From positions 1 through 64,000 of the forward strand of contig DASRES010000086.1 of NCBI GenBank assembly GCA_035651955.1: a stretch of 64,000 nt of DNA. The letters are read 5' to 3'. Position numbers and translations under genes: made by a program. Of the stretch, positions 23,299 through 31,715 are shown in pieces; the first letter of the stretch is position 1, and each line of letters opens with the position of its first letter. Origin of the DNA: Acidimicrobiia bacterium (GTDB lineage Bacteria > Actinomycetota > Acidimicrobiia > IMCC26256 > JAMXLJ01). The notes below the pieces were generated by a model. It did not search any database. It had not been told where the DNA came from and saw only the letters and a program-made list of their open reading frames with translations.

Positions 23299-23414
23299 AC
23301 GTTCAACGCCGCTGCTCGCACCGATGTTCCACGCGCTCGCCCGCGTGCTCGGGTCGCTCACCGAGCACGCACAGAAGTCGCGGACGGTCACGTCGAGCCG
23401 GGCATACTTCCCCC

Positions 23415-24260
23415 GTGCGCGACCCCCGCGACGTCGTCGACACCGACCCCGCTCGTGCTGCCGACGGAGAGCCGGTCCTCGCCGTCGCGAACCTCGAGGT
23501 CGTCTACGGCGGTTCGATCGTCGCGCTGCGCGGGGTGAGCCTCCGGGTACGCACCGGGACCGTCGTCGCGCTGCTCGGCGCGAACGGCGCCGGGAAGACG
23601 ACGTTGCTGCGCGCCGTGTCCGGGTTGCTGCCCGTCCATCGCGGCGAGGTGACACGGGGCACGGTGCTCCTCGACGGCGAGCGCATCGAGCGCGCCGCCG
23701 CGCCGCAGATCGTCCGGCGCGGGCTCGGTCAGGTGATGGAGGGCCGCCGCATCTTCGGGGAGCTGACCGTCGACGAGAACCTGCGTGCCGGCGCGTTCAC
23801 GCGCAGTGACCGCGGCTCGGTGCGCGAGACGTACGAGTACGTGATGTCGTTGTTCCCGGTGCTCGCGCAGCGCCGGTCGTCGACGGCGGGCTACCTGTCG
23901 GGTGGCGAGCAGCAGATGCTCGCGATCGGTCGCGCGCTCATGGCACGCCCGCGGGTGCTGCTGCTCGACGAGCCGTCGCTGGGGCTCGCGCCGCTCATCG
24001 TGCAGCAGATCCGCGACATCGTCGCCGAGATCAACAAGGCGGGAACGAGCGTGCTGCTCGTCGAGCAGAACGCGACGATGGCGCTGTCGATCGCGCACTA
24101 CGGCTACATCCTCCAGAACGGCCGTGTCATGAAGGACGCGCCGGCCGAGGAGCTGCTCGCCGACGAGGAGGTGCGCGACTTCTACCTCGGCGTCGGCGAG
24201 CGGGGGCGCCGGTCGTTCCGCGACCTGAAGCCGCGCCGCCGTCACCGTTGGAGCGCGTGA
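23415..24260 (+). CDS. livF: Branched-chain amino acid type ABC transporter ATPase LivF
   Basis: The 281-residue ATPase has Walker A LLGANGAGKTTLL, a Q-loop region LGQVMEGRRIFGELTV, signature YLSGGEQQMLAIGRAL and Walker B RVLLLDEPSLGLAP, which together identify LivF. It energises import of branched-chain amino acids or related acids at the inner membrane. GTG 23415 fits the N-terminus and is preceded by a -10-like CATACT at 23403-23408. It is the first gene of the six-gene importer operon. Confidence 0.9.
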   Translation: MRDPRDVVDTDPARAADGEPVLAVANLEVVYGGSIVALRGVSLRVRTGTVVALLGANGAGKTTLLRAVSGLLPVHRGEVTRGTVLLDGERIERAAAPQIVRRGLGQVMEGRRIFGELTVDENLRAGAFTRSDRGSVRETYEYVMSLFPVLAQRRSSTAGYLSGGEQQMLAIGRALMARPRVLLLDEPSLGLAPLIVQQIRDIVAEINKAGTSVLLVEQNATMALSIAHYGYILQNGRVMKDAPAEELLADEEVRDFYLGVGERGRRSFRDLKPRRRHRWSA

Positions 24261-25049
24261 GTGACTGCCGACGGGCACACCGGCGCGCCGCTCCTGGTCG
24301 TGCGCGACGTGACCCTCCGCTTCGGCGGCGTGACCGCGCTGTCCGACATCTCCTTCGAGGTCGCCAGCGGCGAGCTCTTCGCGATCATCGGGCCGAACGG
24401 CGCGGGCAAGACGTCGATCTTCAATTGCCTCAGCGGCACGTACCGGCCGCAGACCGGGAGCATCCGTCTCGACGGTGAGGAGCTCGTCGGCCGGCGCCCG
24501 CCGACGATCGCGCACCTCGGCGTCGCGCGCACGTTCCAGAACATCGGGCTGTTCACGAACCTCGACGTGATCGAGAACCTGATGCTCGGGCGCCACCACC
24601 TGATGCGGACCGGGTTCCTCGCGGGGATGGTGTGGCTCGGTCGCGCGAGGCGCGAGGAGGTGGTGCACCGCCGCCGCTGCGAGGAGATCGTCGAGCTCCT
24701 CGATCTCGGTGCGTACCGTCGCCAGCCCGTCGGTCTGCTCCCGTACGGCGTCCAGAAGCGCATCGAGCTGGGGCGCGCGCTGGCGATGGAACCGCGGTTG
24801 CTGCTGCTCGACGAGCCCGTCGCGGGCATGAACCTCGAGGAGACCGAGGACATGGCCCGCCACATCGTCGCGATGCCCCGTGAGCTCGGCATCGCGACGA
24901 TCCTCGTCGAGCACGACATGCACCTCGTCATGGACATCGCCGACCGCGTGATGGTCGTCGACTTCGGCGAGGCGATCGCGCTCGGCGACCCGGTTGCCGT
25001 GCAGTCCGACCGGCGCGTCATCGACGCTTACCTCGGGCAGCCGGGGTGA
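24261..25049 (+). CDS. livG: Branched-chain amino acid type ABC transporter ATPase LivG
   Basis: The 262-residue ATPase begins directly after the livF stop with GTG. Walker A is IIGPNGAGKTSIFNCLSG and Walker B is RLLLLDEPVAGMN. The signature is LLPYGVQKRIELGRAL, where YGVQK replaces the usual LSxGQ/YGxQR, as is common in LivG. The H-loop is in TILVEHDMHLVMDIADRV. It pairs with LivF on the LivH/LivM membrane dimer. Confidence 0.9.
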   Translation: MTADGHTGAPLLVVRDVTLRFGGVTALSDISFEVASGELFAIIGPNGAGKTSIFNCLSGTYRPQTGSIRLDGEELVGRRPPTIAHLGVARTFQNIGLFTNLDVIENLMLGRHHLMRTGFLAGMVWLGRARREEVVHRRRCEEIVELLDLGAYRRQPVGLLPYGVQKRIELGRALAMEPRLLLLDEPVAGMNLEETEDMARHIVAMPRELGIATILVEHDMHLVMDIADRVMVVDFGEAIALGDPVAVQSDRRVIDAYLGQPG

Positions 25050-26866
25050 CACCGGTGTCCACGACGACGACGGCCGCCGGCGAGGAGACGCTCGGCGGGT
25101 TGCCGGAGCTGCTCGCTCGGCGCGCGCAGAAGGCCGGCGGCACGGTGGCGCTGCGCGTCAAGCGGCTCGGCTACTGGCACGAGACGACGTGGGCCGAGTA
25201 CGCGCGGCGCGCCGCGGCCGCCGGGCTGGGGCTGCGCGCGCTCGGCGTCGACGCCGGTGAGACCGTCGCGATCCTGTGCGGCAACCAGCCCGAGTGGCTG
25301 TTCGTCGAGGTCGGCGCGCAGGGCGTCGGCGCGGCCGTCGCGGGTCTGCACCCCGCGACACCGCCGGGTGATGCTGCGCGCCTGCTGCACCACGTCGGTG
25401 CCGTCGCACTCGTCGTCGCGGACGAGGAGCAGCTCGATGTCGCGCGTGCGATCCGCGCGGACGTCCCGTCGTTGCGCACGATCGTGGTCGTCGACACGCG
25501 CGGCATCCCGTCGTTGCGGGCACGCGCGGAGGTGAGCCTCGACGAGCTCGAGGCGCTCGGTGGCGGCTCCCGTGATGGCGCCGACGACGTCGTCCGCGCG
25601 TGGGCGGAGACGAGCGCGCGCGTCGCCGACAGCGCGACGGCGCGCATCGTGTTCTCGGCAGGCAGCGACCCGCCGCGCGCCGTCGCGCTGTCGCGGACGA
25701 ACCTCGTCGCGACCGGTGTCGCGCTCGGCGACGTGCTCGCGCTCGGCCCGGGTGACGAGACGCTCAGCTCGCTGCCGTTGTCGTACGTCGGCGCCGCCGT
25801 CGTGGCCGGCCCGCTCGCGCTCCGCACCGGGCTCGTCGTGAACTTCGGCGAAGGAAGGGAGACGCTCGTCGAGGACGCGCGTGAGGTCCAGCCGACGTTG
25901 TTCGTCGCCGTGCCGCGCTGGTGGGAGGAGGTGCGATCAACGATCGAGCTGCGGATGGCGCGCGCGGACGCGGTGAAGCGGGCAGCGTTCCGGTTCTTCC
26001 GCACTCGTGGCGCGAGCCGCGCGCGTGCCGGTCGGCCGGTCGGACGCATCGGGACCGCGCTCGTCTACCGGCCGGTGCGCGCGAAGTTCGGCCTGCGGCG
26101 CGCCCGCGTCGCGTTGTCCGTGGGTGCACCGCTCGCGCCCGCCGTCGTCGAGTCGTTCGCCGCGCTCGGGCTCGCGCTGCGCGAGTGCTACGGCACCGTC
26201 GAGACGACGGGGTTCGCGACGTGCCCACGCACGGTGCCCGTCCGCCCCGGCACGGCAGGCCCGCCGCTGCCGGGGATGCACGTCCGCGTCGCCGACGACG
26301 GCGAGGTGCTCGTGCACGGCGCCGGCGTCTTCACCGGGTACGTCGGCGACGACGAGCGGACGCGGGAGGCGATCGACGCGGGCGGCTGGTTCCACACCGG
26401 CGATCTCGGACGCCTCGACGACGACGGCAACCTCGTCATCACCGACCGCAAGAAGGACGTCGTCGTGACCGCGTCCGGTGCCGCCATCGCACCGCGGTTC
26501 CTCGAGGAGCGTCTGATGCGCTCGCCCTACGTGCAGCAGGCCGTCGTCGTCGGCGACGGGCGCCCCTACGTCACCGCGCTCGTCGCGCTCGCGCCCGACG
26601 TCGTCACCGCGTGGGCGCTCGAGCACTCGGTGCCGTTCACGACGTTCCAGGACCTCGCGAGGTCCGTCGAGGTCCAGGACCTGCTGCGGGGCGTGCTCGA
26701 CGACGTGAACCGCGACGTCGCGCCGCCGGAGGAGATCCGCGACGTGCGCGCGCTGCCCGAGCCGCTCGAGCAGTCCGCCGGCGCGTTGACGACGACGCAG
26801 CGCGTCCGGCGCGAGGCGGTCATCAGCGCGAACGCGCAGCTGGTCGAGGAGATGTACGGATCATGA
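25046..26866 (+). CDS. AMP-dependent long-chain acyl-CoA synthetase paralogue, motifs degenerate
   Basis: The 606-residue protein has the adenylate-forming fold and aligns with FadD15-type ligases: TTWAEYARRAAAAGLGLRAL, YGTVETTGFAT (A5), GGWFHTGDLGRLDDDGN (A7) and ITDRKKDVVVTASG (A8). The phosphate-binding A3 loop, normally TSGTTGxPKG, reads IVFSAGSDPPRAVALS. The catalytic lysine near the C-terminus (usual TxTxKxKR) is Arg in LTTTQRVRR. It may be a weak, altered or inactive ligase, or an acyl-binding protein. It sits between livG and livH, overlapping livG by 4 nt, so it is probably tied to the imported substrate. Confidence 0.85.
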   Translation: MTPVSTTTTAAGEETLGGLPELLARRAQKAGGTVALRVKRLGYWHETTWAEYARRAAAAGLGLRALGVDAGETVAILCGNQPEWLFVEVGAQGVGAAVAGLHPATPPGDAARLLHHVGAVALVVADEEQLDVARAIRADVPSLRTIVVVDTRGIPSLRARAEVSLDELEALGGGSRDGADDVVRAWAETSARVADSATARIVFSAGSDPPRAVALSRTNLVATGVALGDVLALGPGDETLSSLPLSYVGAAVVAGPLALRTGLVVNFGEGRETLVEDAREVQPTLFVAVPRWWEEVRSTIELRMARADAVKRAAFRFFRTRGASRARAGRPVGRIGTALVYRPVRAKFGLRRARVALSVGAPLAPAVVESFAALGLALRECYGTVETTGFATCPRTVPVRPGTAGPPLPGMHVRVADDGEVLVHGAGVFTGYVGDDERTREAIDAGGWFHTGDLGRLDDDGNLVITDRKKDVVVTASGAAIAPRFLEERLMRSPYVQQAVVVGDGRPYVTALVALAPDVVTAWALEHSVPFTTFQDLARSVEVQDLLRGVLDDVNRDVAPPEEIRDVRALPEPLEQSAGALTTTQRVRREAVISANAQLVEEMYGS

Positions 26867-26870
26867 GCTC

Positions 26871-27767
26871 ATGACGAAGTTCCTCGAGCTGGTCGTGGCG
26901 GGCGTCGCCAACGGCGCGCAATACGCGTTGGTCGCGCTCGGGTTCGTCGTCATCTACCGCGCGACGGGGGTGATCAACTTCGCGCAGGGCGGGTTCGTCG
27001 TCCTCGGCGCGTACTTCGCGTACGACTTCCACCAGACGCTCGGCTTGCCCTTCTACCTGTCGCTCGTCCTCGCGATGGCGGCCGGCGCGCTGGTCGGCGT
27101 GATCACCGAGGCGACCGTCCTTCGCAAGCTGACCGGCGAGCCGCCGTTCGTCGTCATCATGATCACGATCGGGGTGCTGACGATCATCGAACAAGTCGTC
27201 CCGACGGTGTGGGGCGGCAACCCGCTGCCGCTCGGCGACCCGTGGGGCGTTCGGTCCGTCAAGGCCGGGAACATCAACCTCCGCGTCGCCGACCTGTGGA
27301 CGATCGCGCTCGTGATCGTCGTCCTCGGTGCCTTCTTCCTGTTCTTCCGGTACTCGAAGCTCGGCGTCGCGATGCGCGCGACGGCCGTCGACCTCGAGGC
27401 CGCGCTCGCCCAGGGGATCAGCGCGCGACGCATCGTGTCGCTGTCGTGGGCGATCGCCGGGCTCGTCGCCGCGCTCGCGGGCGTCACCCTCGCGGGTGGT
27501 GGCGCGGGTGTGCGGCCCGACATCGAGCTCGTCGCGCTGACCGCGTTCCCGGCGATCATCCTCGGCGGCCTCGACTCGCCGGGCGGCGCGGTCGTCGGCG
27601 GCATCGTCATCGGGCTCGCGCAGTCGCTCACCGCGGGCTACCAGCCCGAGTACGCGTCGTGGCTCGGCCAGGGCTTCGACCTGGTGATGCCCTACGTCGT
27701 GATGGTGATCGTCCTCATGGTCCGCCCGTACGGCCTGTTCGGCCTGCGCCACGTGAGACGCGCATGA
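26871..27767 (+). CDS. livH: Branched-chain amino acid type ABC permease LivH
   Basis: The 298-residue protein has about eight membrane segments and LivH hallmarks: ANGAQYALVALGFVVIYRAT, GVINFAQGGFVVLGAYFAY and FPAIILGGLDSPGGAVVGG, the last containing the cytoplasmic loop that contacts the ATPases. It forms the translocation pore with LivM. It begins 4 nt after the acyl-CoA synthetase stop and overlaps livM by 4 nt (ATGA). Confidence 0.92.
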   Translation: MTKFLELVVAGVANGAQYALVALGFVVIYRATGVINFAQGGFVVLGAYFAYDFHQTLGLPFYLSLVLAMAAGALVGVITEATVLRKLTGEPPFVVIMITIGVLTIIEQVVPTVWGGNPLPLGDPWGVRSVKAGNINLRVADLWTIALVIVVLGAFFLFFRYSKLGVAMRATAVDLEAALAQGISARRIVSLSWAIAGLVAALAGVTLAGGGAGVRPDIELVALTAFPAIILGGLDSPGGAVVGGIVIGLAQSLTAGYQPEYASWLGQGFDLVMPYVVMVIVLMVRPYGLFGLRHVRRA

Positions 27768-28918
27768 GCGGCGGCGTCTTGTCGTTCCGGGCGTTCGGCG
27801 CGGAGCGCCGTCGTCGCGCCCGGCGGCGCTCGATGCCGACCCGGCCCGCGGACCAGATCCGCCTGCTGCGGACGCGCTCGCAGGTCGTCCTGGTGCTCGT
27901 GCTCGTCGCCGCGTGGGTGCTGCTGCCGCTCGTGCTGCAGGACTTCTGGCTCGACGTGCTCGCCCGCTGCGGGCTCGCGGCGGTGGGAGCGATCGGGTTG
28001 AACCTGCTGACGGGGTACACGGGCCAGATCTCGCTCGGCCACGCGTTCTTCATAGGCTGCGGCTCGTACGTCGCCGCGTGGTTCGGCGTGCAACAGGGGT
28101 TGCCGCTGTGGGTGTGGCTCCCGCTGTGCGCGCTGATCGGCGCCGCCATCGGCGCGCTCGTCGGACCGTTCGCGCTCCGGCTGCGCGGTGACTACCTCGC
28201 GATCGTCACGATCGGGCTGCTCTACATCGGCGCGCACATCTTCACGAACTGGGACACCGTGACCGGCGGTCAGGCCGGGACCGCGACGGATGCGCCGGCG
28301 AAGATCGGCCCCGTCGACTTCGCGCATCTCGAGCTGTTCGGGCGCACGTTCACGCGACGGCAGGGCCTGTTCTACCTGGTGTGGTTGATCGTCGGGATCG
28401 TCGCGCTGCTCGCGGTGAACCTTGCGCGGACGCGCCCCGGACGCGCGATGCAGGCGGTGCGCGACCAGGACGTCGCCGCCGAGGTCATCGGTGTCAGCCT
28501 CGCGCGCTACAAGATCGGCGCGTTCGCCGTGTCGAGCGCGTGCGCGGCCGTCGCCGGCGGGCTGTTCGGGCTCGTGCAGCAGTTCGTCAACCCGTCGGAC
28601 TTCGGGGGCGCGCCGGGCCTCGTCCTGTCGATCACGTATGTCGCGATGATCATCATCGGCGGCATCGGGACCATCCGCGGGGCCGTGCTCGGCGCGCTCG
28701 TCGTCGCGGGCCTCCCGCAGGTGATCCAGCACATCAGCGAGTCGACGAAGATCCCGTTCGTGCAGAGCGGCTCGGGCGGCTCCGGCTACCTGTCGGTGTT
28801 CGCGCTCAACCAGATCATCTTCGGGATCCTCATCATCGTGTTCCTGCTGTTCGAGTCGCGGGGGCTCGCGGCGTTGTTCGACCGCGCCCGTGCGTACTTC
28901 CGGGCGTGGCCGTTCTGA
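27764..28918 (+). CDS. livM: Branched-chain amino acid type ABC permease LivM
   Basis: The 384-residue protein shows LivM motifs GLNLLTGYTGQISLGHAFF, LRLRGDYLAIVTIG, AMQAVRDQDVAAEVIGVS and MIIIGGIGTIRGAVLGA, with about nine to ten membrane segments after a basic cytoplasmic N-terminus of about 45 residues (AERRRRARRRS). ATG 27764 overlaps the livH stop. It pairs with LivH. Confidence 0.92.
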   Translation: MSGGVLSFRAFGAERRRRARRRSMPTRPADQIRLLRTRSQVVLVLVLVAAWVLLPLVLQDFWLDVLARCGLAAVGAIGLNLLTGYTGQISLGHAFFIGCGSYVAAWFGVQQGLPLWVWLPLCALIGAAIGALVGPFALRLRGDYLAIVTIGLLYIGAHIFTNWDTVTGGQAGTATDAPAKIGPVDFAHLELFGRTFTRRQGLFYLVWLIVGIVALLAVNLARTRPGRAMQAVRDQDVAAEVIGVSLARYKIGAFAVSSACAAVAGGLFGLVQQFVNPSDFGGAPGLVLSITYVAMIIIGGIGTIRGAVLGALVVAGLPQVIQHISESTKIPFVQSGSGGSGYLSVFALNQIIFGILIIVFLLFESRGLAALFDRARAYFRAWPF

Positions 28919-29020: not shown

Positions 29021-30304
29021 ATGGAGCGGATGGCTCGGTGGCGGCCGGGGGGTCGCATGGTCGCCGTGCTGGTCGTCGTCGCGATGGCGACGTTGGGGGC
29101 GTCGTGCCGGGGGAGCAGCAGCCCGAGCTCCAAGAGCAGCGGCAAGAGCGGCGCGCCCGCGACGACGACCGGCTTCGACGGCAAGACGATCACCGTCGGT
29201 GCGATCTCGCCGCAGACGGGCATCGCGTCGGTGATCGGGCTCGCGCTCACGAACGGGAACCGCGTCTACTTCGACGCGCTCAACGCCAAGGGCGGCATCG
29301 CGGGCAAGTACAAGGTCAACCTCGAGGTCCGCGACAGCCAGTACAACTCGAACGTCGCGCAACAGAACTACGCCGAGCTGCGCGACAAGGTCGTGATGCT
29401 CGCCCAGGTGCTCGGGACGGACATCACGAACGCGCTCCTGACGCCGATGCGCCAGGACCAGATGGTCGCGGCACCGGCGACGCTCGACGCCGAGTGGGTG
29501 CGCGACGCGAACCTGTTGCCGGTCGCCGCGCCGTACCAGATCGAGGCGATCAACGGCATCTCGTACTGGGTCGACCAGGGCGGCAAGGGCAAGACGTTGT
29601 GCCTGATCCGCTCGGACGACAAGTACGGCGACGCCGGCCAGGCCGGCGTCGAGTACGCCGCCAAGCACCTCGACTTCAAGCTCGGCAAGATCACGACGTT
29701 CAGCGCGGCGTCGACCGACCTGACCGCGCAGCTGCAACAGGTGAAGTCGGGGTGCGACGCCGTCTGGCTCGTGGCGCTCCCGACCGCGACGATCCCGCTG
29801 ATGGGCCAGGCCGCGTCGCAGAACGTGAACCTGCAGTGGCTCGGTCAGGCGCCGACGTGGGTCTCGCTCCTCGCGCAGGGTGCGACGGGCGCGTACACGA
29901 GCAAGCACTACTGGCTCGCCGCGCAAGGGCCGCAGTGGGGCGACACGTCCGTGCCCGGCATGAAGCAGATGCTCGACGACATCCAGCGCTTCGACCCCAA
30001 GCAGGGTCCGGACATCTACTTCGCGTTCGGGTACGCGCAGGCGTTCACTGTTGCGAAGCTCCTCGAGAAGGCGGTCTCGCTCGGTGACCTCAGCCGGGCG
30101 GGGATCCAGAAGGCGCTCAACGAGCTGGGAACGGTCGACACCCTCGGCCTGGCCGGCACGTACACGTACGGGCCGCCCGCGCAGCGCGTGCCGCCCCGTG
30201 AGTCGACGATCTTCGTCGCCGACCCGACCGCGCCGGGCGGGTTGCGGGCGCTGAAGACGAACTTCATCTCCAGCGCGGCGCAGTCGTACCAGTTCCCGAA
30301 GTAG
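29021..30304 (+). CDS. livK: Substrate-binding lipoprotein of LivFGHM importer
   Basis: The 427-residue protein has a lipoprotein signal peptide (MVAVLVVVAMATLGASC; lipidated Cys near residue 29) and a Ser/Lys/Gly-rich linker. A type I periplasmic-binding fold follows: ITVGAISPQTGIASVIGLAL, YFDALNAKGGIAGKYKVNL and DDKYGDAGQAGVEYAAKH. It delivers ligand to LivHM on the outer face of the membrane. A GAGGGGG ribosome binding site precedes the ATG. The exact ligand (branched-chain amino acid, short-chain amide or acid) is not predictable. The neighbouring ligase-like gene hints at a carboxylic acid. Confidence 0.9.
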   Translation: MERMARWRPGGRMVAVLVVVAMATLGASCRGSSSPSSKSSGKSGAPATTTGFDGKTITVGAISPQTGIASVIGLALTNGNRVYFDALNAKGGIAGKYKVNLEVRDSQYNSNVAQQNYAELRDKVVMLAQVLGTDITNALLTPMRQDQMVAAPATLDAEWVRDANLLPVAAPYQIEAINGISYWVDQGGKGKTLCLIRSDDKYGDAGQAGVEYAAKHLDFKLGKITTFSAASTDLTAQLQQVKSGCDAVWLVALPTATIPLMGQAASQNVNLQWLGQAPTWVSLLAQGATGAYTSKHYWLAAQGPQWGDTSVPGMKQMLDDIQRFDPKQGPDIYFAFGYAQAFTVAKLLEKAVSLGDLSRAGIQKALNELGTVDTLGLAGTYTYGPPAQRVPPRESTIFVADPTAPGGLRALKTNFISSAAQSYQFPK

Positions 30305-30483: not shown

Positions 30484-30539
30484 CCGTGGACCGAAAGAAG
30501 AACCGGGGGCTTCGGACCCCGGGGCTACCCTGGCCCGTC

Positions 30540-31715
30540 ATGGAGTTCCGCCGGATCAACGCCCTGCCGCCGTACGTCTTCGGCATCATCGACTCGCTGA
30601 AGATGGAGGCACGCCGGGCCGGCGAGGACGTCATCGACCTCGGGTTCGGCAACCCCGACGTCCCGTCCCCGGGCATCGCCGTCGACAAGCTCGCGGAAGC
30701 TGCCCGCAACCCGCGCAACCACCGGTACTCCGCGACGCGCGGCCTGCCGAAGCTGCGGCTCGCGATCACCGACCTGTACCGGCGCAAGTTCGACGTGCAG
30801 CTCGATCCCGAGACCGAGGTGTGCACGACGATCGGCGCGAAGGAGGGGTTCTCGCACCTGATGTGGACCGTGCTCGCACCGGGCGACGTCGCGTTCGTGC
30901 CGAGCCCGTCGTACCCGATCCACATCTGGGGCCCGATCCTCGCCGGTGCGGACGTCCGCCACGTCCGCCTCGGGCCCGAGCAGGACTTCTTCCAGCACCT
31001 GCTGAACGCGTGGGAGGAGTCGTGGCCGCGCCCGCGCGTCGTCGTGCTGTCGTTACCGCACAACCCGACGACGACGTGCGTCGACCTCGAGTTCATGGCC
31101 CGCATGGTGGACTTCGCGCGCGAGCACGACGTGCTCCTCGTCCACGACTTCGCGTACGCGGACCTCGGCTTCGACGGCTACGAGCCGCCGTCGATCCTCC
31201 AGGTACCGGGCGCGACCGAGGTCGCCGTCGAGCTGTACACGTTGACGAAGTCGTTCTCGATGGCGGGCTGGCGCGTCGGGTTCCTGCTCGGCAACCCGGA
31301 GGTCGTCGGCGCGCTCGCGAAGCTGAAGAGCTATCTCGATTACGGGACGTTCCAACCGATCCAGATCGCGTCGATCGTCGCGATGAACGAGACGCCCGAC
31401 TACCCGCGGGAGGTCAACGCGATCTACAAGGGTCGTCGCGACGCGCTCGTCGACGGGCTCGCGCGCATCGGGTGGGACATCCCGAAGCCGCAGGGGACGA
31501 TGTTCGTGTGGGCGCCGATCCCCGAGCCGTACGAGGAGATGGGCAGCCTCGAGTTCGCCAAGATGCTGGTGCCCGAGGCGAAGGTCGCGGTGTCGCCGGG
31601 CGTCGGGTTCGGTCCCGGTGGCGAGGGGTTCGTGCGGTTCGCGCTGGTCGAGAACGAGAAGCGCATCACCCAGGCGATCCGCGGCATCCGGAAGGCGCTC
31701 CCGAAGCTCGGGTGA
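30540..31715 (+). CDS. Class I/II aminotransferase, AlaC-like
   Basis: The 391-residue PLP enzyme matches the alanine/LL-DAP aminotransferase group: [66 protein letters not shown] (the PLP Asp and Tyr) and [17 protein letters not shown] with the Schiff-base lysine. Glutamate-pyruvate transamination is the best guess. ATG 30540 lies 8 nt after TACCCT (30526-30531), typical of the leaderless starts in this window. It ends at the palindromic terminator shared with the tetR gene. Confidence 0.88.

Follow-up and report, generated by a model that had tools for sequence, protein, structure and literature searches.

The acyl-CoA synthetase (ACS) encoded between livG and livH in the window, i.e., the whole stretch of 64,000 nucleotides analysed here, is on balance probably a selectively maintained pseudoenzyme. 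Judging from sequence comparison and a predicted fold, it would derive from an intact ligase of the same livG/livH slot and now act as a non-catalytic partner of the importer.

Results

Operon and family assignment

The ACS gene has a GTG start and encodes 606 aa (Table 1). It is part of the arrangement livF-livG-ACS-livH-livM-SBP, in which livF, livG, livH, livM and a Peripla_BP_6 substrate-binding protein (SBP) follow in the order of a liv (HAAT-type) importer operon. The overlap of livG and ACS spans 4 nt (GTGA), the ACS stop codon ends at 26866 and the ATG of livH follows at 26871 after a gap of 4 nt; livH and livM again overlap by 4 nt. A preliminary description of this DNA had already noted the overlap with livG and the 4-nt gap to livH, in agreement with these coordinates; the strict stoichiometry with the transporter that it also claimed is more than gene spacing alone can establish. 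Further downstream, a class I/II aminotransferase is encoded at 30486-31715, 181 nt past the SBP gene. Its nearest NCBIfam model is alanine transaminase, with a score below the cut-off, and it finds no match in the fetched congener locus (L064).

Table 1. Coordinates of the importer operon and of the ACS motifs within the window
Feature	Position	Strand	Evidence
livF-like ABC ATPase	23388..24260 (start approximate)	+	Pfam/NCBIfam matches
livG-like ABC ATPase	24261..25049	+	Pfam/NCBIfam matches
Putative pseudo-acyl-CoA synthetase (ACS), AMP-binding and AMP-binding_C_3	25046..26866	+	Pfam, AlphaFold, PDB fold matches
Degenerate A3 phosphate loop VFSAGSDPPRAVA, residues 202-214, one residue deleted vs. 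TSGTTGPPKG	25649..25687	+	alignment
A4 active-site His to Tyr, residue 247	25784..25786	+	conserved-column alignment
A5 motif CYGTVET, residues 381-387, Glu386 kept	26186..26206	+	alignment
A7 motif HTGD, residues 450-453, kept	26393..26404	+	alignment
A8 motif ITDRKKDVV, residues 465-473, Arg468 kept	26438..26464	+	alignment
GGKN motif to SGAA, residues 477-480	26474..26485	+	conserved-column alignment
A10 motif LTTTQRVRR, residues 581-589	26786..26812	+	alignment
livH-like permease	26871..27767	+	Pfam/NCBIfam matches
livM-like permease	27764..28918	+	reading frame and conserved gene order
Substrate-binding protein (SBP), Peripla_BP_6	29021..30304	+	Pfam

The window ACS scores above the Pfam cut-offs for AMP-binding (PF00501, 161 bits) and AMP-binding_C_3 (PF23562, 34.9 bits), i.e., it has both the AMP-binding and the C-terminal domain of class I ANL enzymes. 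FadD11 (NF038343) is the nearest NCBIfam model, but with 282.4 bits against a cut-off of 950 the protein is not a FadD11 member; the intact liv-linked copy L065 is likewise under this cut-off (425.6 bits). AlphaFold yields a confident and complete predicted fold (mean pLDDT 90.3), for which the best PDB matches found by Foldseek are luciferases and acyl/aryl-CoA ligases. For L065, the pLDDT is 85.6 and low at the mobile catalytic loops, with an alignment depth that differs from the window ACS run, which is why we read nothing into this difference.

Motif changes in the window protein

With regard to A3, the window ACS reads VFSAGSD-PPRAVA where intact relatives have VYTSGTTGPPKGAM. That is, the phosphate loop TSGTTGxPK of class I ANL enzymes is replaced by FSAGSD-PPR, in which Gly206 and Pro210 are retained, the Thr204 position is Ser and Asp stands in place of one loop Thr. 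The A10 motif of intact relatives is LTATQKVKR, and the position of its catalytic lysine is taken by Arg586 in the window ACS. On the other hand, Glu386 (A5), Asp453 (A7) and Arg468 (A8) are present; residues of these three motifs bind Mg and ribose (PMC8388817, PMC6122825). The preliminary description had named the lost A3 loop, the A10 Lys-to-Arg exchange and recognisable A5, A7 and A8 motifs, all of which our alignment confirms; the changes at A3 and A10 are shared by the congener. Two more changes come on top of these, namely Tyr247 for the A4 active-site His and GAA for GKN.

The reference set, made up of 45 intact liv-linked copies plus 18 others (L042 is counted in both), shows 67 columns conserved at ≥95%. 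The window protein has lost 13 of the 15 conserved A3/A4/GKN/A10 sites vs. 3 of the 52 other conserved sites, where the grouping into 15 and 52 sites was chosen after the columns were seen. In a homologous ligase, mutants of the P-loop or of the A4 His are 4- to 2,000-fold less active or dead, and the A10 Lys is the key catalytic residue (PMC8388817). Going by such mutagenesis of homologues, acyl-adenylate formation would probably be abolished or strongly impaired in the window ACS.

Decayed copies and gene deletions

Full-length decayed copies number eight in the window's order, i.e., the window copy (W), L064, L082, L070, L069, L071, L072 and L066. Among the copies seen, decay is limited to part of this order and occurs in several stages. 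The A3 loop appears, for example, as TAGSD-PPRA, TVGGSGAPRP, SLGTTGPPKA, TPGTSGDPKG or TSGVGAPPSG, and the A10 Lys position holds Arg, Glu or Lys (Lys in L066, L069, L071 and L072). The Lys of GGKN is gone from all eight, while Glu386, Gly452, Asp453 and Arg468 are kept in 8/8. The congener G001 (locus L064), the sole other genome of the genus compared, has the same operon with TAGSD-PPRA and LTSTRRVRR. A sequencing error or single-strain accident is thus ruled out, since the congener carries the same changes.

In the ACS tree, the decayed copies form one clade (97/96 support) within the intact liv-linked group. The transporter tree places them in two groups (W, L064, L082, L070 and L066, L069, L071, L072, respectively), and the transporter genes thereby recover subgroups of the ACS clade. 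Decay may have set in once or twice, since this tree gives little resolution of how the two groups and the intact L065 are related. In L148, L149 and L150 (genomes G014, G024 and G004), which have orthologous transporters, livG is directly followed by livH, i.e., the ACS gene is cleanly deleted; in the transporter tree, L148 and L149 branch among the decayed copies. At locus L075, the reading frames of ACS and livH are both shifted, which probably reflects a misassembly of that genome; translated in the alternative frame, the A10 region of this ACS shows Glu for Lys.

Intact relatives across the class

We searched 395 genomes of the class, of which 185 gave a match at E ≤ 1e-85. The order livF-livG-ACS-livH-livM-SBP is widespread: besides the congener, many genomes of the window's order and of its class have it. 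We fetched 61 further ACS copies blind to their motifs: 60 have liv genes in the fetched stretch, and the A3 core as well as the A10 Lys are retained in all 61. Decay is thus not caused by liv linkage, given that the linked copies are intact throughout the class. The preliminary description had suggested checking whether the changes co-occur with liv linkage, and the answer is mixed: class-wide, linkage goes with the intact enzyme, and linked decay is found in part of the window's order. It had also taken intact orthologues in the same operon as a sign of sequencing error or local decay. Such orthologues are present in more distant genomes, but the finding stands, since the decay is common to the congener and sister lineages.

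A second type of liv-linked ligase, which reads TRTRK at A10 and lacks the A4 His, accounts for two of the 61 copies. This type was seen in L076, L078 and L079 (window's order, family f15) and in L040, L041 and L043 (Thermus, Thermaceae); it has ITRTRKVRR at A10 and an altered region at the GGKN position, and keeps the A3 core and A10 Lys. Genome G008 carries three intact liv-linked ligases at three loci (L065, L068, L073). Family f22 (L127, L140), with genomes of ~1 Mb and few AMP-binding genes, has kept an intact liv-ligase operon, and its retention in such small genomes suggests an important function. The window's own genome holds an intact-looking FadD15-like ligase that is apparently split across two contig ends (L003, L002).

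Evolutionary rate and selection

We measured the ACS rate as branch lengths on a fixed topology relative to livF+livG+livH. For the decayed clade, this gives a ratio of 3.0 vs. 1.1 elsewhere, and the tip ratios of decayed and other copies differ (Mann-Whitney p = 0.001). A second branch-length run gave 2.6 vs. 1.1, with no rise for SBP or livM. Codon omega values, which are rough due to saturated dS but far from 1, are 0.055-0.063 for decayed and 0.018-0.027 for intact ACS; those of the liv genes are 0.02-0.04. ACS codon positions 1 and 2 are more conserved than position 3. A frameshift or pseudogene in the window is ruled out by the full ORF and an omega near 0.06. Two hallmarks of a pseudoenzyme are found, i.e., purifying selection (omega of about 0.06, with dS saturated) and the loss of catalytic residues within a fold that is predicted to be retained.

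Discussion

In the ancestral state, the importer most likely took up a carboxylic acid, which the adjacent ligase would have activated with CoA. Part of the window's order then lost the A3 ATP-phosphate loop and the A4 His, and some of its members the A10 lysine as well; the fold is predicted to be intact and, by computation, purifying selection and the Mg/ribose-binding residues persist. Since constraint on the protein persists, we infer that its role is non-catalytic: it may now be a structural partner of the importer, or one that binds an adenine nucleotide or acyl-nucleotide. This partner role appears dispensable because other lineages have deleted the gene, and the deletions suggest a weak benefit. 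The preliminary description had seen a degenerate ACS that may be a sensor or acyl-binding pseudoenzyme. The lesions, purifying selection and the kept fold and AMP-half-site residues are in line with a pseudoenzyme, whereas a sensor or acyl-binding role would go beyond them, and the protein is probably, but only probably, dead for adenylation.

The main rival is slow reductive decay ahead of deletion, i.e., the importer substrate changed or CoA activation shifted to another ligase, such that the gene is being lost and its frame is kept mainly by translational coupling to livH. We regard this as rather unlikely, although it stays alive because other lineages deleted the gene. It would fit the lesions being graded within one lineage, the clean livG-livH deletions (two of them among decayed copies on the transporter tree), the roughly threefold acceleration of ACS and the FadD15-like ligase of the window's own genome. 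However, the low omega together with the stronger conservation of codon positions 1 and 2 points to selection on amino acids and not merely on an open frame, the losses cluster in one functional half-site, and SBP is not accelerated. A selectively maintained pseudoenzyme is our preferred reading. Within it, we think it doubtful that the pseudo-ACS binds AMP, acyl-AMP or acyl-CoA at the retained adenosine half-site and, as a dedicated regulatory subunit of the liv-type importer, sets import by energy or acyl status.

It is improbable that the window ACS, with its unusual phosphate loop and Arg for Lys, is still active as a ligase that is slow or uses an unusual substrate: several P-loop residues are lost along with the A4 His and GKN, one loop position is deleted, a loop Thr became Asp, and the intact reference set shows no variation in the core A3 columns. 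In favour of activity, the protein retains Gly206, Pro210, Glu386, Asp453 and Arg468, Lys to Arg is a conservative exchange, and some decayed copies still have the A10 Lys. Residual activity may exist because Gly206 and Pro210 are kept, Thr204 became Ser and the exchange of Lys for Arg keeps the charge. The retained AMP half-site beside a lost pyrophosphate half-site would also suit a neofunctionalised enzyme that works without ATP, e.g., by transferring the acyl group of preformed acyl-AMP to CoA. We consider this very improbable, since the literature searched held no precedent, the GKN motif is changed too and no linked acyl-AMP source was seen.

Taken as a selectively maintained pseudoenzyme, the window ACS belongs to a natural series within one conserved operon slot, i.e., intact ligase, partly decayed ligase, pseudo-ligase and deleted gene. 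This series lets one ask of what use an enzyme is to a transporter after catalysis is gone. In our narrow literature searches, no description of a pseudoenzyme from the acyl-CoA synthetase family turned up, and searches for liv-plus-ligase operons returned nothing direct.

Comparison with known systems

The window ACS resembles class I ANL acyl-CoA synthetases and FadD11 in its two-domain fold (PF00501 and PF23562), its A5/A7/A8 motifs and its full length, but differs in lacking the A3 loop, A4 His, GKN and A10 Lys. Intact liv-linked ACS (e.g., L065, L108, L109) occupy the same livG/livH slot and are 43-45% identical to the window protein; in contrast to it, they have retained YTSGTTGPPKG and LTATQKVKR, and their rate relative to the transporter is 2.5-3 times lower. 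For the importer itself, CouPSTU is the closest parallel that we discuss, and we know of no pseudo-ligase there. The acids imported by CouPSTU-type importers are then activated with CoA. CouPSTU of Rhodopseudomonas palustris is described as a liv-like ABC importer of organic (carboxylic) acids (PMC3610893), which is the kind of uptake that we propose for the window's importer.
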